Below, piece by piece: positions 19,971 through 31,019 of a DNA stretch of 64,000 nucleotides (positions are counted from its first letter, which is position 1; the number at the start of each line of letters is the position of its first letter). The stretch comes from Paracoccaceae bacterium. GTDB taxonomy: Bacteria; Pseudomonadota; Alphaproteobacteria; Rhodobacterales; Rhodobacteraceae. The notes beneath the pieces are model-generated. The model was given only the letters and a program-made list of their open reading frames with translations. It made no database searches and was not told the origin of the DNA. The position numbers and the translations under genes were made by a program. The DNA is taken from assembly GCA_902631295.1 (NCBI GenBank), contig CACOXV010000001.1, positions 1-64,000 of the forward strand, written 5' to 3'.

Positions 19971-20251
19971 AATTTCACCTCCTTTATCTCATAAAAATAG
20001 GTCATATCTGTCCGTCTGAACAGCTTCATACTTCCACTTATCCAGTTTAGCCAAAGCTTCCGATGGGTTGCGAGTACTAAGACTGATTGAAAACTTGTTG
20101 AAATTAATGCTTTTGATAATTTATTCTAACTTTACTCTATATTTCAACAGCCAAGCAATTCAAAACTTGCTGGATTAGTATCTATCTTAGCGTAATAATT
20201 GACACGCACCAGCAATGAAGATTAGCTACACATTTTATGAGAAGATAAAAG

Positions 20252-20536
20252 ATGTCATATTACACAATTTCACACTGGGAAGCTGATGAGTGGACAGATG
20301 AAATGGAAGCCATAGCTAAAGATAAATTCGGACCCATGATCATGGCTGTAGGCGCAAGTTCAGTCGATTTCATCCGAACTGGAGACAAAACTATGTGTGT
20401 TGTAACTAAGTATAAAGATGAGGCTACTGGAGCAGCTGCTCTATCAAAAATCGCTGAGATTCGAGGTCAAGCTGCATCAACCCTTCCTGTCAGGATGGTT
20501 TCTGACGTTAAAGGTTCTGCATTCGTGAGTATGTAA
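20252..20536 (+). CDS. Small ABM-like (ferredoxin-like fold) protein
   Basis: 94 aa; similar layout to 22866..23135. Confidence 0.6.
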   Translation: MSYYTISHWEADEWTDEMEAIAKDKFGPMIMAVGASSVDFIRTGDKTMCVVTKYKDEATGAAALSKIAEIRGQAASTLPVRMVSDVKGSAFVSM

Positions 20537-20659
20537 TTAATAAAAGGGCCTCAGTACTCAGCCCATCTTATCCACTAAACCTTAGCAGTTTCGATTAATA
20601 TTACGTAAATTTCTTTGCTTTATTAAAATAATTAAAGCCGAGCATGAGAAAATGTGGAG

Positions 20660-20968
20660 TTATGCTGCTAAGTCGTCCATTGCCTTGCCGTAACATTCTT
20701 TGAGTTTGGCTCTTATCTCTTGGTCAGTAGCAAGATTGCCTAAGTCACCTTGAACCTTTCGGATGACATCTTCATCACCAGCTTCTTCCATATCTGACTT
20801 GATAACTTCTTTGGCGTAATTTTCTGCGTCACTACCAGACTTGCCTAAAAGCTCAGCTGCCCAAAGTCCCACAAATTTGTTACGTTTTGCCATCACTTTA
20901 AACTGCATCTCTGCGTCATTTGCGTACTTTGATTCAAAAGCTTTTTTTCTGTCATCGAAGGTGTTCAT
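20660..20968 (-). CDS. DUF1476 family protein (alphaproteobacterial F1-ATPase inhibitor zeta-like)
   Basis: FDDRKKAFESKYANDAEMQFKVMAKRNKFVGLWAAELLGKSG. Confidence 0.9.
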   Translation of the reverse strand: MNTFDDRKKAFESKYANDAEMQFKVMAKRNKFVGLWAAELLGKSGSDAENYAKEVIKSDMEEAGDEDVIRKVQGDLGNLATDQEIRAKLKECYGKAMDDLAA

Positions 20969-21209
20969 TCCAGCCCCATGGTTGTTATTTATTTATTTAT
21001 TTACATATGCGGTATTGCTTTGGTTTCAATAGTCTGAATCGTTTTATTTATACTTATCTTCAGCCGCTGTAAGCCACACATCTTGGCTTGACACTTTCAT
21101 ACACTACCAATGAGTTTATCTAAGTCGCAATTAGGTCCCAATACAGTACTTGTTACATGCCATTTTTTGTTTACTATCGGTAGAAAATTGCACCACCTGG
21201 AGAGCTTCA

Positions 21210-21623
21210 ATGTGTAAATTAAAACCAGTAATCAGCGCCCTTGTTTTCTCACTAATTGCCACCGGGCAGGTCCCTGCCGAGGAGGCTGCAGAAACACGCT
21301 TGTTAGAGACTAATAAGTGCGTGGAATGTGATCTCAATAATGCAGAATTGGAAGGGGCAAAGCTTAGAAGGGCAGACTTTAGTGGAGCATATCTTTATCG
21401 GGCGAATTTAGAGTACGCTGATCTTCGCGGAGCTAACTTTACTGGTGCAGATTTGAGTAACGCAAGATTTCGAGGTGCAGACCTTAGAAACGCAATCTTC
21501 AACGGTGCTATCTTAAAATACACAAATTTTGGTAATGCTGATTTAAGTGGAGCAAGCTTTGTCGATGCCAAGTTGAGAGGCGCTAGGTTTGCTAACACAA
21601 AAGTAGATGGCATACAGTTTTAA
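21210..21623 (+). CDS. Exported pentapeptide-repeat protein
   Basis: Signal peptide then tandem A(D/N)LXX repeats: ADLRGANFTGADLSNARFRGADLRNAIFNGAILKYTNFGNADLSGASF. Confidence 0.9.
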   Translation: MCKLKPVISALVFSLIATGQVPAEEAAETRLLETNKCVECDLNNAELEGAKLRRADFSGAYLYRANLEYADLRGANFTGADLSNARFRGADLRNAIFNGAILKYTNFGNADLSGASFVDAKLRGARFANTKVDGIQF

Positions 21624-21930
21624 TTGAATTAGTTATTCTTAAAAAGGTGATAGCTTTCATTGGGGAAAGAAAACACTTAGCATATTTTAGTTATTAATTT
21701 CACTGCAGACGCATCGCCTTAGTAATTTGATGCATTGGTCCAGGAAGACGCACCAATATTTACTAAAATCGATGGACGAATGCATTACCATCCATTTACC
21801 TTTTAACCTTTAAATTTTTAACTTTTATAAAAATTTTAATGCTTAAAAGCCATTATTTAAACCTTACCAAGTAAATAAAGAGACGCAGACTTGGGAGATG
21901 CCTGTGCCCCTTTATTTTTAAGATAAGGAT

Positions 21931-22013
21931 GTTAACTAACCTTGGTTAACACGCACTATTTTTGTCGTGACACATAACATTTACGCACCAAAGTTGAGTT
22001 TGGATCACAGTTT
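21931..22013. repeat. Intergenic repeat copy 3
   Basis: GTTAACTAACCTTGGTTAACACGCACTATTTTTGTCGTGACACA...TACGCACC...TTTGGATCACAGTTT. Confidence 0.8.
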
Positions 22014-22038
22014 CACATTTGCCATTGCAGCGGTGTAT

Positions 22039-22341
22039 TCATAAAGCCGTAAGTTGCATCACAATCGGGCCAACAAATTCTTCGACCATTACATTATTAT
22101 TATCTTGCGAAGATTTGCTTCTTGCCTCCTCAAGCTTTGAACGCTCTGCATTCGCTATTTCTTCCGAAGGATAGATGATTACAGCTTGGTGATGATTCTC
22201 GTCAATTTTCCACCACAGTACTTCTTCAGGAGGGAAATCTTTTCCGTAATTATCCCTGTAAACCCGCATCACTGATTGAAGATGGCTTGGATCTGGAACG
22301 CCATCTGACCATCGCCACTTAGTATAAACGGCATATTTCAT
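22039..22341 (-). CDS. Small conserved protein
   Basis: 100-aa ORF with good coding character, YTKWRWSDGVPDPSHL. Confidence 0.5.
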   Translation of the reverse strand: MKYAVYTKWRWSDGVPDPSHLQSVMRVYRDNYGKDFPPEEVLWWKIDENHHQAVIIYPSEEIANAERSKLEEARSKSSQDNNNVMVEEFVGPIVMQLTAL

Positions 22342-22394
22342 AATAGTCTCCTTAGTTCATGCTAAAATAACCTAATATGGATGCAAGATACTGA

Positions 22395-22658
22395 TCATTC
22401 AGTCATCTCTGACATCATATAAGCTTTATAAACTGCGCCATTATCTTTATCCCATTGAATTTCTGCGGGATCAGACATAAACGCACCCAACGCCTCCATG
22501 TCTGTACAATTCATTGCACACATGACCTCATTATTACCAAGATCAGCTATACGATATTCGGTTATCCATTGACCCATTGGCCCAGCCATGTCTTTTTCAA
22601 GTTTGCCCTTTATCGCATTAAAGCCAGCTTCAATGGTCCCGTGAAAAAAAATATTCAT
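22395..22658 (-). CDS. Small protein, paralogue of 19707..19970
   Basis: See 19707..19970. Confidence 0.6.
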   Translation of the reverse strand: MNIFFHGTIEAGFNAIKGKLEKDMAGPMGQWITEYRIADLGNNEVMCAMNCTDMEALGAFMSDPAEIQWDKDNGAVYKAYMMSEMTE

Positions 22659-22865
22659 ATTAGATCCTCCTAGTTATGTTTTGTAGGAGACATACACTCT
22701 CCTTATCCTGTAAATTGTTTTCCTTTTATTGATACGTATCCGATTGACTAGTACAAAATAGTACAAATTCTGTAGTTACCTTCTCACAGTTTTACGATTA
22801 GGTATTGGTAACCTCGATACACGCTCGAAGAATTAAACGTCTAGTCAAACAAAAAGGAGAAGAAA

Positions 22866-23135
22866 ATGTTTGCAACTTTTACAGATTGGTCGATGGACGT
22901 CCCAGAAGAAGGTGTTAAAACCGCAGAAGAAATGTGGCCCGAAATACAAGCAGCGGGTGCGCTCAGCATGCGTATTGTAAAAACAGATGATACAGGGGTA
23001 CGCAGCATGACTATGTGGCCTGATGAGGAAACTGCTCACAAAGCAATACATTCAATGAGAGCAAAAGGTGCGACAAAGTCTGGTGGCGATATTGTCGGCA
23101 GTGCTATGGGAACGGTTCTAGCCGAATTTGGTTAA
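22866..23135 (+). CDS. Small ABM-like protein
   Basis: Preceded by AAGGAGAAGAAA; FTDWSMDVPEEGVKTAEEMWPEIQAAGALSMRIVKTDD. Confidence 0.65.
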   Translation: MFATFTDWSMDVPEEGVKTAEEMWPEIQAAGALSMRIVKTDDTGVRSMTMWPDEETAHKAIHSMRAKGATKSGGDIVGSAMGTVLAEFG

Positions 23136-23201
23136 TTCTGCAGTATTTCAGTTCTAATATTTAATTGCAATATTCTGGTACTTGAGGAGACCGGGATGGG
23201 G

Positions 23202-23537
23202 TCAGCCTTTTGTAAGTAGCGGAGTTGCTCCGCTTTCTGTTCGCCATATTAATCCATCTTTTAACTGATGTACTAGCATCAGAGCTTCTCTATCACCTGA
23301 TTCATAACTTATTATTTAATGCTCTACATTTATGTCATCATTCTCATAAATACAGCGATGTTTTTCAACGTTTGCGGCAGCCATCCAGTTTATCATTTGA
23401 TCCCAGTCAATGTCATCCATCTTTTTAACTTCGCCATTTGAATGGCTAACCAACTCATAATCATCGTGATGACACTCCAAGAGGGCTTAATTGTCTGATT
23501 CATTCCATGCTTTTGTATATTTTTCGAAAAGGCTCAT
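23202..23537 (-). pseudogene. NTF2/SnoaL-like protein interrupted by two in-frame TAA codons
   Basis: MSLFEKYTKAWNESDN*ALLECHHDDYELVSHSNGEVKKMDDIDWDQMINWMAAANVEKHRCIYENDDINVEH*IISYESGDREALMLVHQLKDGLIWRTESGATPLLTKG*; stops at 23487..23489 and 23316..23318. Confidence 0.75.
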
Positions 23538-23557
23538 TAGTCCACCCTTCAATCAAG

Positions 23558-23959
23558 TTATTGATAGTTCTCTTTTTCTAATAGTTTGTTAGTTAGATCC
23601 TTTGGATGTTCCCGACCATCAAACCAAGGAGCATCTGCATAGTTTTCAACCTTTATACCATCCAAACACGCTAGGTTTACTACATATTGAGTTGGTGTGT
23701 TACGGGCATGGTGGTGTGTATGTATACCACAAATTGAACAAAACCAATGTTTTGAAGTATGAGTATGAAAAGTATATTCCTTTAGCTTTTTTTTACCTTT
23801 GATTACCTCTAAATTCTTAAGATCAACACAAGCAAAGACAGCATACTTTCTACTACACATCGAACAAGAACATCTCTGCACATGTTCAATTCCATTTGGA
23901 AGCATCAGTTTTATCTCGACAGCGCCACAATGGCAGGTCAATAAAGCAGAGTTTTCCAT
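23558..23959 (-). CDS. GFA/CENP-V family zinc protein
   Basis: LTCHCGAVEI, RCSCSMCSRKYAVFA, FCSICGIHTHHHAR. Confidence 0.85.
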   Translation of the reverse strand: MENSALLTCHCGAVEIKLMLPNGIEHVQRCSCSMCSRKYAVFACVDLKNLEVIKGKKKLKEYTFHTHTSKHWFCSICGIHTHHHARNTPTQYVVNLACLDGIKVENYADAPWFDGREHPKDLTNKLLEKENYQ

Positions 23960-23969
23960 ATCTTTCCCA

Positions 23970-24107
23970 CTATCCAGCAATCAAAAAGTGATAGACTGCC
24001 AGACCGATAACCAAACCCTTCAGGAAAGCAATCCAAGCAACACCATAGTCACTGATACCCAGTTTGGATTTCCAGAACTCCATTTGTCTTTTATGCATTT
24101 CAATCAT
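23970..24107 (-). CDS. Small single-TM protein (45 aa)
   Basis: Not in track. MIEMHKRQMEFWKSKLGISDYGVAWIAFLKGLVIGLAVYHFLIAG. Confidence 0.5.
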   Translation of the reverse strand: MIEMHKRQMEFWKSKLGISDYGVAWIAFLKGLVIGLAVYHFLIAG

Positions 24108-24109
24108 TG

Positions 24110-24385
24110 TTACCAATAAACCTCTACATCTTTATGACTATCTTTGTTTACTGCACTTCCTGTCTGCGCCAAAGAACTTTTCCCAACATAGACTAGACGC
24201 ATTTGGTTGTTCCCTTGAAAGCCACACTTCGTACATCTGGCTCTTCGCAGTACTTCATCACTGGTGATGTCCTCACCATATTCTTTTAACAGAGCTGAAA
24301 CTGGAACCATTGCGTTGTGCCGACAGCTATCATTCTTACATTCAATGTAGAAATGGTGAGACTTATTTCGTTTTAACTGGATCAT
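24110..24385 (-). CDS. Small zinc-ribbon-like protein
   Basis: ECKNDSCRHNAMVPV...RCTKCGFQG. Confidence 0.6.
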   Translation of the reverse strand: MIQLKRNKSHHFYIECKNDSCRHNAMVPVSALLKEYGEDITSDEVLRRARCTKCGFQGNNQMRLVYVGKSSLAQTGSAVNKDSHKDVEVYW

Positions 24386-24610
24386 AGCAGTATCTTATTC
24401 AGATTCGTGTTAATCTCCAATACTTCGCCAAACCGCTTAGCTTAACACTTTCATATGCAATAATATCTAACCGCAAGTTATTTCGTTTCACATTCCTAGC
24501 TAATAAAGAAGGGTGCAGTACAAGAAGTTAAATTTGTAAGTAAGGCTAGTTACTGCTTTGTATTCAAGAATTATTCTGTAGATAAAAAATCTGTCCATTT
24601 CACAAACACA

Positions 24611-25120
24611 TTACCAATATTTTGGATACACACGTTCAGATGCTAAATTATGATATATTAATGCAATTAGTGTGACTATAAATGCGCCAAGCAATGTAGG
24701 AGCCCAAAGGAACTCCCATTCTGGAATAATAATAAATATAGCAACAGGGTTTGAACAAGCTGGTGGATGTGAAACTCTTAGAATAAGCATCATACTTGTG
24801 GTAATTGCTAAAGCCAGTGCCATGCTCCACCATATATCTCCAACTAAATATAAACACGATAAACCAATTAACGAGGCTAAAAAATGGCCAACGATAACAT
24901 TTCTTGGTTGTGCAAAAGGGGAGTCTGGAGCCGCCATGACTAAAAATATAGAAGCACCAAATGATCCCATTATGACTGAATATTCTAGAGAGAAAGCTAA
25001 AAAACCTAAGGTTGATCCAGCAAGAAAAGCACCAAAAAATGAAACAATTACAATCTTAAGTTTTGGGAATGGTGGTAAATCCTCAGCTTGACCTCTAAAT
25101 TTGGTCAAAATGTTCTGCAT
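24611..25120 (-). CDS. HPP family membrane protein
   Basis: GSFGASIFLVMAAPDSPFAQPRNVIVGHFLASLIGL...HPPACSNPVA. Confidence 0.92.
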   Translation of the reverse strand: MQNILTKFRGQAEDLPPFPKLKIVIVSFFGAFLAGSTLGFLAFSLEYSVIMGSFGASIFLVMAAPDSPFAQPRNVIVGHFLASLIGLSCLYLVGDIWWSMALALAITTSMMLILRVSHPPACSNPVAIFIIIPEWEFLWAPTLLGAFIVTLIALIYHNLASERVYPKYW

Positions 25121-25454
25121 AATAATTTCTTAAAGTGTTAATAATAAAATGGAATAGTCCAAAACTTTAAGTTGGACACGAACTTAATCCATACTTAAAT
25201 CAAGACAGTTGCTAACGTACGTTTCGTATTTTCTTTGCTTGCTGGCATTCACGACTGTACTGAAATAGTGGTCAGTGTCCAGAAAAATTAAGCTTAATTA
25301 AAATTGGCATGCACTTGTTAGACTTGACTACAAAAGCAGCTGTGCGTACGATTTGCTTGGTAGATGTGAAAAAACACGCAACCTGCTCGCGCAGCAGTAT
25401 CTGATAGCCAGCCCCCAAAAAAATTAAACTTAAATCAACATTGGAGGAGTTCTG

Positions 25455-25538
25455 ATGGATAAAAGTATGTATTATGCGCATCGAGTAGCGATAAAAAACT
25501 CATATAAATTATACACCAATTTAAGGGATGCAGAATGA
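25455..25538 (+). CDS. 27-aa leader ORF overlapping LysR start (ATGA)
   Basis: GGAGGAG 5-6 nt before ATG; MDKSMYYAHRVAIKNSYKLYTNLRDAE; TGA overlaps LysR ATG. Confidence 0.55.
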   Translation: MDKSMYYAHRVAIKNSYKLYTNLRDAE

Positions 25539-26416
25539 TGTTATCTCACAAAGACCTTGAGTTAATGGTGGCCCTGTCGCAACATAAGAACTTTGGGAAA
25601 GCTGCGTCACATTGCAAACTATCACAGCCCGCATTTTCGCTAAGATTGAAGAAAATGGAAAAAATTACCCAAGCACCACTAGTAATGCGCGGTAATAGTT
25701 TTAAGGGTTTTACCCGCGAGGGTGACCTAATCCTTAACTGGGCTAACAAATTACTAGCGGACTCAGAAAGCATGCGACAGGAGATCCAAGCTTTAAAAAA
25801 CATAATAGATGGAAGGTTAGTGCTAGGCATAGTCCCCACTGCGATGTCATTTGCGACTAAAATATCAGCTAAACTAAGAAGAAAAAATCCAAACCTCTCA
25901 ATTGAAATACATTCCCTTACGAGTGATGAAATTTTAAAAAAAATAGAAAAATGTACGCTGGACGCTGGTGTGATACCTATTAAGAATTCAGATGATCATT
26001 TTGCTGATTTTTTATACGAAGAGCATTATGTACTTATTGCTCCTCGAACTCTTGCTAAATCGGGTAATAGTAATCTTACTTGGGAAGATGCCGCGCGCCT
26101 ACCACTATGTTTGCTAACAAATGATAGATATATAAAACAGCATATATATGATACTTTTGAACAAGTAAAAATAAACCCAAAAGTCGTTGTCGAAGCAAAC
26201 GATTTATCAGCGGTTATGGCACAAGTAACTACTGGTAACGCAGCAACAATCTTACCATTTAGTTCGGTAAATTACCTTACTAAAGTCAATTCTTTGCTAA
26301 TATTTGATTTGGTCGAACCCGTAGTCGTTGAAAAAATTGGATTAGTTTTTAATGATCAATCCGCCTTGAGACCAATTGCTTTGGAGCTCAGGGAACTCAC
26401 AAATAAACCGCTATAA
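25535..26416 (+). CDS. LysR family transcriptional regulator
   Basis: HTH HKDLELMVALSQHKNFGKAASHCKLSQPAFSLRLKKMEK. Confidence 0.93.
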   Translation: MMLSHKDLELMVALSQHKNFGKAASHCKLSQPAFSLRLKKMEKITQAPLVMRGNSFKGFTREGDLILNWANKLLADSESMRQEIQALKNIIDGRLVLGIVPTAMSFATKISAKLRRKNPNLSIEIHSLTSDEILKKIEKCTLDAGVIPIKNSDDHFADFLYEEHYVLIAPRTLAKSGNSNLTWEDAARLPLCLLTNDRYIKQHIYDTFEQVKINPKVVVEANDLSAVMAQVTTGNAATILPFSSVNYLTKVNSLLIFDLVEPVVVEKIGLVFNDQSALRPIALELRELTNKPL

Positions 26417-26553
26417 TCATATCGAATAACTACTTAAGAAAATACAATTAGATTGAATAGCAAATCTTTGCAATGCTGTTTTTAGCGAGCTATCCGATTC
26501 TGACCGCGAGCGGGTTTTATTAACCTATTAGCATTCAGAAAGGATAAACTTGA

Positions 26554-27750
26554 ATGAAAATTTTATGCGTATTATACGACGACCCTACCGACGGTATGCC
26601 AAATTCATATGCTCTTGATAGTCTACCAAAAATTGAAAAATATGCAGATGGTATGTCTCTTCCGACCCCCAATGATATTGATTTTACTCCCGGCGAACTT
26701 TTAGGGTGTGTGTCTGGTGAGCTAGGGCTTCGTAAGTTTCTTGAGGAAGCTGGACATACTTTGGTGGTAACCTCCAATAAAGATGGTGATAATTCGGAGG
26801 CCGACAAAGAACTTGTGGATGCCGACGTTGTAATTTCCCAACCATTTTGGCCCTACTATTTGACCCGTGAAAAAATGCAGAAGGCAAAAAATCTTAAAAT
26901 TGCTATTACTGCTGGAATAGGTTCTGATCACGTGGATCTACAGGCGGCTATGGATCACAATATTGATGTCGTTGAAGTAACATTTTGTAATTCGATCTCC
27001 GTTTCTGAACATATCGTTATGATGATCCTATCAATGGTGCGTGACTATCATACTCAGCACGCTATCGCCAAATCAGGTGGTTGGAATATAGCTGACGCCG
27101 TGAAGCGGTCTTATGACGTAGAAGGCATGCATATCGGCACTGTGGCGGCTGGTCGAATTGGTTTGGCGGCATTAAGAAGAATGAAACCATTCGAGGTAAA
27201 TTTACACTACTTTGATCGTCATAGACTTTCTGCAGAAGTTGAAAAAGAACTGAATTTAACTTTCCACGAAACTGTTGAGTCAATGGTTGCGGTTTGTGAT
27301 GTTGTTACAATAAACTGTCCATTGCATCCTGAAACAGAAAACTTATTTGATGCCCAAATGATCTCTAAAATGAAAAAAGGCGCTTACATCATAAATACTG
27401 CACGCGGAAAAATTTGTAATAGGGAAGCAATTGCGGAGGCATTAGAAAGCGGACAACTGAGTGGATACGCAGGAGACGTTTGGTTCCCTCAACCGGCACC
27501 AAACGATCATATCTGGAGAACAATGCCAAATCACGGAATGACGCCCCACACCTCCGGAACATCTCTATCAGCGCAAGCAAGGTATGCGGCAGGTACTCGT
27601 GAAATTTTAGAATGTTTCTTTGATAAGAAGCCTATCCGCTCTGAATATTTAATAGTACAGGGCGGTGAGTTAGCCGGAACAGGTGCTCACTCGTATAGCA
27701 AAGGTAGTGCTACCAGCGGTTCAGAGGAGGCCAGCAAATACAAAAAATAA
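26554..27750 (+). CDS. fdh: NAD-dependent formate dehydrogenase
   Basis: Full-length FDH: TAGIGSDHVDLQAA, VVEVTFCNSISVSEH, GTVAAGRIGLAALRRM, INTARGKICNREAIAEAL, YAGDVWFPQPAP, MTPHTSGTSLSAQARYA. Confidence 0.95.
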   Translation: MKILCVLYDDPTDGMPNSYALDSLPKIEKYADGMSLPTPNDIDFTPGELLGCVSGELGLRKFLEEAGHTLVVTSNKDGDNSEADKELVDADVVISQPFWPYYLTREKMQKAKNLKIAITAGIGSDHVDLQAAMDHNIDVVEVTFCNSISVSEHIVMMILSMVRDYHTQHAIAKSGGWNIADAVKRSYDVEGMHIGTVAAGRIGLAALRRMKPFEVNLHYFDRHRLSAEVEKELNLTFHETVESMVAVCDVVTINCPLHPETENLFDAQMISKMKKGAYIINTARGKICNREAIAEALESGQLSGYAGDVWFPQPAPNDHIWRTMPNHGMTPHTSGTSLSAQARYAAGTREILECFFDKKPIRSEYLIVQGGELAGTGAHSYSKGSATSGSEEASKYKK

Positions 27751-27767
27751 ACACTTTCCGGCAGTTA

Positions 27768-27800
27768 GCAAGGTTTCAAATTTCTGAAACCTTGCTTTAT
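27768..27800 (+). terminator. Rho-independent terminator of formate dehydrogenase gene
   Basis: GCAAGGTTTCA-AATTTC-TGAAACCTTGC then TTTAT. Confidence 0.75.
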
Positions 27801-27910
27801 CAACAGTTTAACCCCACCCAAACTTACAATACCCCCTGATCACTCTCAAAGACGTTTATTCAGATTAGGTCATTTGCTACGTATGTAGTAATTTTAATAA
27901 TGCGGACTAG

Positions 27911-28084
27911 AACCTATTTTATCGTCATGGTGACGAAAGCTTTAAAATCGCTGTAGCTATGGGAGTTCGTTCACATCATTAGAAGTTTGGAAATATGCCT
28001 GCAATCGAAAATTTACCTGGATCTGACGTAACAGCCATTGTTGTATATGTAAGAGAACTACAAAGGGCCAATGTAATATTTTAG
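27911..28084 (+). pseudogene. Decayed class I cytochrome c C-terminal fragment
   Basis: NLFYRHGDESFKIAVAMGVRSHH*KFGNMPAIENLPGSDVTAIVVYVRELQRANVIF*; in-frame TAG at 27980 where W is expected. Confidence 0.75.
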
Positions 28085-28168
28085 TTCCAAGATGACAAAT
28101 CTAATACCAAGTGATAGCACTTCCCTCTCTTCAAGAAATAACCAATATTAAAGTGACGCGTTAAAAAG

Positions 28169-29416
28169 ATGTATAGAGCTAAAAAGTCATTATTAGGTTT
28201 AATCTTTTCTATAATACTTCTTACGTGGGCATCCAGTTTTTCTAATGCGGATAACAGCTTATTTACGGCAATTGAAAAAGTCCCATTGCCAACTGAAGTT
28301 AGTGCACAAGAAGCCTCTCTTACAAGTAAAGATGGCATTTTGTATATGACTTGGATGGAAAATGTTAATACTCAAACTAAAGTTATGTTCTCAATGAAGA
28401 CTGCTAATGGGTGGTCCGAACCTACACCTGTTCATATTGGTCACGACCTTTTTGTGAATTGGGCCGATTTTCCTAGTATTGCAATACTTAGTGATAAAAC
28501 AATTGCTGTTCACTGGTTACAGAAAATTGGCAAGTCGGCTTTTGATTATCAAATTAACATAGCTTTATCGTCAAATAATGGAAAAACTTGGAGCAACCCA
28601 AAAATTTTGCATGAGGATCTTTCTCCAGTGCAGCATGGCTTTGTGTCAATGACACCTAGCAAAGAAAAATTACTTACAATTATCTGGCTCGATGGACGTA
28701 CTTACGGTGTTAAGTTGGGAGAAACAAAAAACGAAACCGAGGCTATGCAGTTACGCGCCACAACTATCACAAGTGACGGTATTATAGGTAAGGAAGTAGC
28801 AATTGATAAGCGCACATGTTCGTGTTGCCAGACTAGTATTACGGTGACAGATAAGGGAACAGTAATCGCAGCTTACAGAGATAGATCAGAAGGTGAAATA
28901 CGTGATATTTCGATTGCACGATTAGAGCAGAATATTTGGCAAGAGCCCTTTAATCTATACGACGATGGGTGGAAACTATCAGGATGCCCAGTTAACGGAC
29001 CAGCAATCTCGTCAATTGATAAGTTAGTAGCAGTTGCTTGGTTCACAGGCGCAAAGGGAATTTCAGCGGTGAAGATTGCGTTTTCTGATGACGACGGCAA
29101 AAGCTTTGCGACACCATTTATTATAGAAAACAAAGATCCCATTGGCAGAGTAGACTTAGAAATGCTACCAGATGGTGATGCACTGGTTAGCTGGGTAGAA
29201 TGGGTAGATGGTAACGAGATAATTAACATCTGCAGAGCAAGTCAAGAACATGGGTGTAAAGCTCAGGAACAGCTCGTTTTCAATGCATCTAATGCTTCTT
29301 TAAATTTCCCTCAATTAGAACGCGTCAATGAAGACATTTATCTTGTTTGGACCCAACCAGATGAAAATGGAGATAACTTATCAATGCTTCGTTTGTCACC
29401 TAAGCTAATCGATTAA
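28169..29416 (+). CDS. Exported BNR-repeat (sialidase-like) protein with CxCC motif
   Basis: Signal peptide; SSNNGKTWSNP, SDDDGKSFATP BNR/Asp-box-like repeats; KRTCSCCQTS. Confidence 0.75.
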   Translation: MYRAKKSLLGLIFSIILLTWASSFSNADNSLFTAIEKVPLPTEVSAQEASLTSKDGILYMTWMENVNTQTKVMFSMKTANGWSEPTPVHIGHDLFVNWADFPSIAILSDKTIAVHWLQKIGKSAFDYQINIALSSNNGKTWSNPKILHEDLSPVQHGFVSMTPSKEKLLTIIWLDGRTYGVKLGETKNETEAMQLRATTITSDGIIGKEVAIDKRTCSCCQTSITVTDKGTVIAAYRDRSEGEIRDISIARLEQNIWQEPFNLYDDGWKLSGCPVNGPAISSIDKLVAVAWFTGAKGISAVKIAFSDDDGKSFATPFIIENKDPIGRVDLEMLPDGDALVSWVEWVDGNEIINICRASQEHGCKAQEQLVFNASNASLNFPQLERVNEDIYLVWTQPDENGDNLSMLRLSPKLID

Positions 29417-29594
29417 ATTATTATCATATGTAGCTTTTTCAGTAAAAATGTGAGCGCAGAATAACTAGCAAGTAAAGCGGTCAAGGTTATGACCCCCACC
29501 CCATTGATCACAAAGTTATCAGTAAAATGTTTCCCCTGTGTTTCTCCACAAAAGTTTGAATTCTACCCTCGTATATCTAAGTCATTGAAAGTAT

Positions 29595-29671
29595 TGGCGC
29601 ACCGGGTAGGATTCGAACCCACGGCCCCTTGATTCGAAGTCAAGTGCTCTATCCAGCTGAGCTACCGGTGC
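29595..29671 (-). tRNA. tRNA-Arg(TCG)
   Basis: GCACCGGTAGCTCAGCTGGATAGAGCACTTGACTTCGAATCAAGGGGCCGTGGGTTCGAATCCTACCCGGTGCGCCA; anticodon loop CTTCGAA, encoded CCA. Confidence 0.96.
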
Positions 29672-29804
29672 CAATTTTGAAATCAAACAAATCTCAAGCC
29701 TCAAAATCACACGGTTAATTACAAGTGTCAACAGGATGAATATAACTATGCGCTAAACGGATATTCTGTAAAATGAAGCAAACCATTAATAGCGAGATAA
29801 AGTA

Positions 29805-31019
29805 TTAATTATCAAAACCACCAAAATTCTTAAATAAATTTGGATCACCAAAAATATCATTATATTCATTGGTGCTTCCGGTTCCCCCATCACCACCTTC
29901 CGTTTCAAGTGCATCCGCATTATTTTGTAGAAGCTTTAGCTGATCGGCAAAATTGGATTTTTTGGCATCTTCTGCCTTCGCAATGCACTCGGCACCGTAA
30001 AGATTATTTTTAATAATCTGTTGCCAACCAATGATAGCCACTAAAAATAAAAATAGAATTACAAAAATTGACTTGGGCAGAACAAATACTTTTTTGCTGT
30101 TTTCTTTCAATCGATCACTACTAATTTCCTTACTCATTTTTTCAGCGCTCTCCAGAGCCTTTTTTCTTTCCTGCCGGCGGCGAAAAATTTCGTATAAAAT
30201 TGCAGCTATTAGGGTCAAACATATGATTACAAAAGCCAGCGCGCTTATGGCTGGGCTAATTCCTAACCGCACTTTGGTTGCAATAACGGTTGTTAGCGTC
30301 TGCTCCGATAATATACTAAAGACGGTTGTATTATAATTTTCAAAAGAGGCTAAAAACGCGATGACTGCGGAAGAACCTATAGCTGGCATAAGGTATGGGA
30401 TTAATATTTTCATGAATACTTGCGTTTGGCTAGCACCCAGGTCTAACGCTGCCTCTTCTTGCGTCGTATCAAAACGTTGAAGCCGCGCTACAAAAATTAA
30501 AAAACAGTAAGTAGATATAAAACAAGTTTGACCCAAGATGGTTAGAAATATACCGTTTCTTCCCAACTCTGAAATAATTCCCTCGCCACCCAGGGTCGCA
30601 ATTCGATCCCACAAAACAACCGTTGATATCCCAATAACAACTCCCGGAAACAGAACAGGCATTATGGACATAGAGTAAAAAAGTGTTCGGAGCTTACTGT
30701 GAACCTGTGTCAATACTATTGCCGCTGACATACCAATTGGAACTGATAATGTGACGACTCCAAGTGCAATAAATAAGCTCGTTATAAAGCCAACATGTAA
30801 ATCCCTGTCTGCAGCCAAACCAGCCAATCGCTGACCATCGTACGCAATTTTTCCCTCATTAAACCATCTAAAACTAAAACATTCCCACGGGGTTATTGAC
30901 GGGAACTCAGCAGAATTAAATGCTGTAACGCTCATTATGATTAGAGGACCAAATAAGTATAGAAAAAATATAGAAATATAGATACCAAGTAAAATTTGGA
31001 ACGCACGGTTTGAGGTCAT
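29805..31019 (-). CDS. ABC transporter permease (PotC-like) with C-terminal extension
   Basis: EEAALDLGASQTQVFMKILIPYLMPA EAA motif; unusual charged linker + extra TM + acidic tail. Confidence 0.88.
   Translation of the reverse strand: MTSNRAFQILLGIYISIFFLYLFGPLIIMSVTAFNSAEFPSITPWECFSFRWFNEGKIAYDGQRLAGLAADRDLHVGFITSLFIALGVVTLSVPIGMSAAIVLTQVHSKLRTLFYSMSIMPVLFPGVVIGISTVVLWDRIATLGGEGIISELGRNGIFLTILGQTCFISTYCFLIFVARLQRFDTTQEEAALDLGASQTQVFMKILIPYLMPAIGSSAVIAFLASFENYNTTVFSILSEQTLTTVIATKVRLGISPAISALAFVIICLTLIAAILYEIFRRRQERKKALESAEKMSKEISSDRLKENSKKVFVLPKSIFVILFLFLVAIIGWQQIIKNNLYGAECIAKAEDAKKSNFADQLKLLQNNADALETEGGDGGTGSTNEYNDIFGDPNLFKNFGGFDN

Follow-up and report, generated by a model that had tools for sequence, protein, structure and literature searches.

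A 27-codon ORF with a strong Shine–Dalgarno sequence overlaps the start of a LysR gene upstream of formate dehydrogenase: a possible, non-conserved ribosome-delivering leader

We considered a locus within a window of 64 000 nt (the whole stretch of DNA analyzed) from a Paracoccaceae genome. An HPP-family membrane protein gene (24611..25120, − strand) is divergent from a LysR-family regulator gene with HTH_1 and LysR_substrate domains (25535..26416, + strand), and its upstream region shares the gap 25121-25454. Farther along the + strand, 26554..27750 matches the NAD-dependent formate dehydrogenase family NF005750 (683 bits versus a cut-off of 329); thus, the location of the LysR gene upstream of formate dehydrogenase, as stated in the original prediction, was borne out. 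Directly in front of LysR a 27-codon leader ORF, MDKSMYYAHRVAIKNSYKLYTNLRDAE, occupies 25455..25538 of the + strand, from ATG at 25455 to TGA at 25536-25538. It is preceded by a Shine–Dalgarno (SD) sequence, GGAGGAG (25443..25449, + strand), with GGAGG 7 nt before the ATG, and its TGA is situated inside the hexamer ATGATG (25535..25540, + strand), which offers two candidate starts for LysR. All these elements are directly observed; the SD-led short ORF ending inside the LysR start, as originally described, was confirmed both in the sequence and in the list of ORFs.

Pairing of the leader SD with the anti-SD tail ACCUCCUUUCU (the common bacterial sequence, adopted here by assumption and not taken from this genome) amounts to −9.3 kcal/mol. 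This value is above those of 88% of 386 gene starts found across 464 kb of this genome, the starts being simple ORF-based calls of this analysis made with no use of annotation; pairing as strong was met at 1.2% of random positions. Having a start codon, a usable SD and a stop codon that overlaps the downstream start (at −1 spacing, if the start supported by the protein family is taken), the leader shows the standard layout for translational coupling.

In the relatives of this LysR the spacing between the first Met and the conserved DL/DM is the same (MSELRDL, MAELRDL, MPDLRDL, MTEIRDL, etc.), and the protein of the window fits this spacing if begun at the second ATG, 25538 (MLSHKDL). Where the start of a relative is legible, it falls one residue after the 25535 ATG, so that the alignment points to 25538 (TGATG, −1 nt overlap) as a more likely start than 25535 (ATGA, −4 nt overlap). 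Therefore, the predicted stop/start overlap as such holds, while its assignment to ATGA with start 25535 probably gives way to TGATG. A frameshifted or extended LysR N-terminus was ruled out; the LysR is complete, and the family starts align at 25538.

The LysR gene was thought to have no obvious ribosome-binding site. However, an SD-like sequence, AAGGGA (25523..25528, + strand), is present inside the leader ORF, at spacings of 6 and 9 nt from the ATGs at 25535 and 25538, respectively; its pairing, −5.5 kcal/mol versus the genome median of −5.6, is that of an ordinary SD, and its accessibility is normal. The opening energy of the LysR start region, 9.0 kcal/mol, ranks at the 65th percentile in a sample of up to 120 genes, and removing the leader RNA upstream leaves it nearly unchanged. 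Folds around the leader and the LysR start were no stronger than in shuffled sequences, and no SD-sequestering structure was found there; a structure hiding the LysR ribosome-binding site was ruled out by the ordinary opening energy, hardly altered without the leader RNA. As AAGGGA pairs at the genome median and its surroundings are no more structured than those of a typical gene, the suggested dependence of LysR expression on the leader is not supported. A weak or sequestered downstream SD, a feature typical of strong dependence though not essential to the family of coupled uORFs, is not what we see here. Dependence through unfolding of the LysR start by the leader is not favoured, with re-initiation being possible.

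The LysR of the window is 48% identical to an FdsR-type copy in its own genome (L036 1859-2737) that is located beside an fdsB-like gene of Mo-formate dehydrogenase; its nearest kin also include LysR copies of the genus whose neighbour is a fused fdsGB-like formate dehydrogenase gene. In the tree it groups with LysR proteins encoded beside NAD-linked Mo-formate dehydrogenase genes (a set of nine rows, support 98/97), the exact sister group within this FdsR-type set being not firmly supported (94/71), and its end branch is long (1.1 versus a median of 0.31). Judging by its sequence, it is related to the FdsR-type regulator found beside Mo-formate dehydrogenase genes and is diverging fast. No Mo-formate dehydrogenase operon adjoins it, though; the neighbour is a single-subunit NAD-dependent formate dehydrogenase, and the gene may be a duplicate placed beside this enzyme. 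A sister genome (G008; L035 9211-11226) has the same divergent pair of hpp and fdh genes (identity of fdh, 91%), and LysR is missing from the space between the two; hence, LysR was inserted or lost at that spot. In this comparison the alignment is confined to the DNA immediately preceding fdh (from 26469 on), and a gapped alignment of the divergent intergenic regions was no better than alignments of shuffles. In another genus (G476; L055 218-2697) a different LysR gene directly precedes the NAD-formate dehydrogenase gene in the same orientation, with no overlapping leader. FdsR-type LysR genes of the genus adjoin genes resembling pufL and pufM (L037 2376-4140; L036 3291-5055), which from their sequence we take to be putative genes of the photosynthetic reaction centre.

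The leader is not conserved. Among 61 genomes the back-translated leader start was found in the genome of the window only, i.e. it was absent from all 60 relatives; the intergenic DNA had matches in none of the 15 other genomes of the genus. Neither the FdsR-type LysR copies of the genus nor the FdsR-type homologues that we read have a comparable SD-led leader overlapping the LysR start. No LysR with >49% identity to that of the window was present elsewhere in relatives or in family and class samples (several hundred genomes), and searches for LysR orthologues in genome contigs, viral contigs and plasmids yielded nothing useful. Thus, the expectation that the leader would be kept in close relatives failed as far as it is testable (0 of 60), this being a weak test since true LysR orthologues were not found; the genome of the window is 70% complete and many of the relatives are incomplete, so absence is no proof. 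A frame or peptide kept in relatives, as in a conserved regulatory leader peptide, was not observed in this comparison, which included no close LysR orthologues.

The peptide itself provides little signal. Its codon score of 0.21 nats exceeds the scores of 19% of windows in real genes and is exceeded by 38% of intergenic open windows; the score rests on 26 codons, too few to decide. No Pfam match was found for the peptide and, on this basis, a known small protein was ruled out. The lack of both homology and a clear coding signal is what one would expect if translation counted and its product did not.

How rare is such a layout? Given that LysR begins with ATGATG, a TGA in the leader frame follows of itself; what is improbable is that an SD-led ATG should open this frame. 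When the actual upstream DNA was shuffled with its dinucleotides preserved, an ATG uORF of 8-60 codons ending at ATGATG appeared in 11% of cases, such a uORF with SD pairing of −5 kcal/mol or stronger in 1.1%, and one with −9.3 kcal/mol or stronger in 0.06%. In a Markov model the leader layout at this SD strength occurred with frequency 0.05%, or 0.2% given ATGATG. Of 188 genes in this genome that have 100 nt or more of free DNA upstream, three had a uORF with SD of −5 kcal/mol or stronger overlapping the gene start, versus 0.46 expected (0.00245 × 188), and the LysR leader was the strongest of the SD-led overlapping uORFs in this set. Two further genes of this genome, L068 4824 and L073 7650, have SD-led ATG uORFs of 45 and 23 codons, respectively, with a stop overlapping the gene start. 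About 0.4 chance cases of the strength of the LysR leader would be expected per whole genome (0.0005 × the about 800 genes that should have free DNA upstream in a genome of this kind). Rare for one gene (about 0.05-0.2%), the layout was nevertheless picked by a scan, so chance stays in play.

We give an even chance to the leader being a translated, non-conserved, ribosome-delivering uORF with a peptide of no function and with partial re-initiation at LysR. Ribosomes recruited by GGAGGAG would read the 27 codons and stop at the TGA within the LysR initiation site; some of them, aided by AAGGGA, would re-initiate at the ATG at 25538 or 25535. We infer transcription through the leader, its translation and the re-initiation. 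The leader would then raise or smooth LysR translation, with direct initiation at LysR also possible. This reading is favoured by the strong and well-spaced SD with its ATG, by the −1/−4 overlap, by the low chance frequency and by the lack of a peptide signal; it is weakened by the absence of conservation, by a coding score near random and by the number of chance cases expected per genome. One could speculate further that a duplicated FdsR-type regulator moved before the NAD-dependent fdh gene and gained the new uORF as its main site of ribosome delivery, a recent coupling at the species level; we consider this scenario unlikely, if conceivable.

The leader could also be a chance open frame with no regulatory effect, LysR being translated from AAGGGA and the upstream SD-ATG having come about incidentally in intergenic DNA that is AT-rich and weakly constrained. 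Such an origin, which we regard as a serious though lesser possibility, agrees with the median strength and normal accessibility of the LysR SD, with the non-conserved leader and its neutral coding score, and with the occurrence of uORFs of any SD strength ending at ATGATG in 11% of shuffles; on the other hand, SD strength and spacing of this kind are rare by chance, and such a site, if transcribed, should recruit ribosomes. Obligate or regulated coupling, in which LysR would be expressed only when the leader is translated and the leader initiation site would be the target of a regulator, is suggested by a layout close to that of iraD ORF27; yet LysR has its own SD in a normally accessible region free of sequestering folds, and CsrA, the iraD regulator, was found in none of the 16 genomes of the genus, which also ruled out CsrA control as in iraD. 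We judge such coupling improbable. It is harder still to see the leader as an attenuation or stalling peptide with residues sensing a metabolite, e.g. tyrosine: the Tyr-rich composition (4 of 27 residues) is the one feature in its favour, while no terminator-like site on the + strand, no Rfam match at the leader, no unusual structure and no conservation were found; this we consider very improbable indeed. An RNA element or riboswitch was ruled out as well, as the Rfam search of 20000-30000 yielded only a tRNA (29598-29671) and folds were no better than in shuffles.

With respect to the preferred ribosome-delivering uORF, the leader is ordinary in kind, the device being already known from iraD ORF27 and uof-fur. 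The −1 and −4 stop/start spacings are enriched among closely spaced or overlapping gene pairs, and short uORFs may serve only for ribosome delivery and may be widespread (review PMC12548453); the leader, with its −1/−4 overlap and probably irrelevant peptide, resembles these generic uORFs, its role being predicted from sequence. The closest precedent is E. coli ORF27, which is located upstream of the regulatory gene iraD, encodes 27 aa, has an SD to itself and overlaps the iraD start with its stop codon; the iraD SD is sequestered by structure and CsrA represses ORF27 (PMC5574718), and it is these two features that give the coupling its importance there. No SD-hiding structure was found at the LysR start, and no CsrA in the genus. 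In E. coli the translation of uof and fur is coupled. Like uof, the leader is a short ORF directly upstream of a transcription regulator gene, with which it would be coupled; unlike uof, a target of RyhB with rare codons for which other bacteria show related arrangements (PMC11550727), the leader is present in one genome only and has no known sRNA. Should it be translated, the leader would join the short uORFs that do no more than deliver ribosomes, its host being a bacterium with a small, AT-rich genome, and would exemplify a device of this kind that arose without conservation; the general view would be unchanged.

In the region upstream of the leader, TTGACT-17-TACGAT (25324..25352, + strand) is a weak sigma-70-like match that might, at a guess, be a promoter; the promoter scan of this region found such matches to be no more numerous than in shuffles. 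In the same region a module occurs twice in degenerate form, as CCAGAAAAATTAAGCTTAATTAAA and CCAAAAAAATTAAACTTAAATCAA, at a distance of about 136 nt (25180-25460), with a gapped self-alignment score of 68.5 versus at most 60.5 in 200 shuffles; the copies could possibly be regulator sites or an old tandem duplication.
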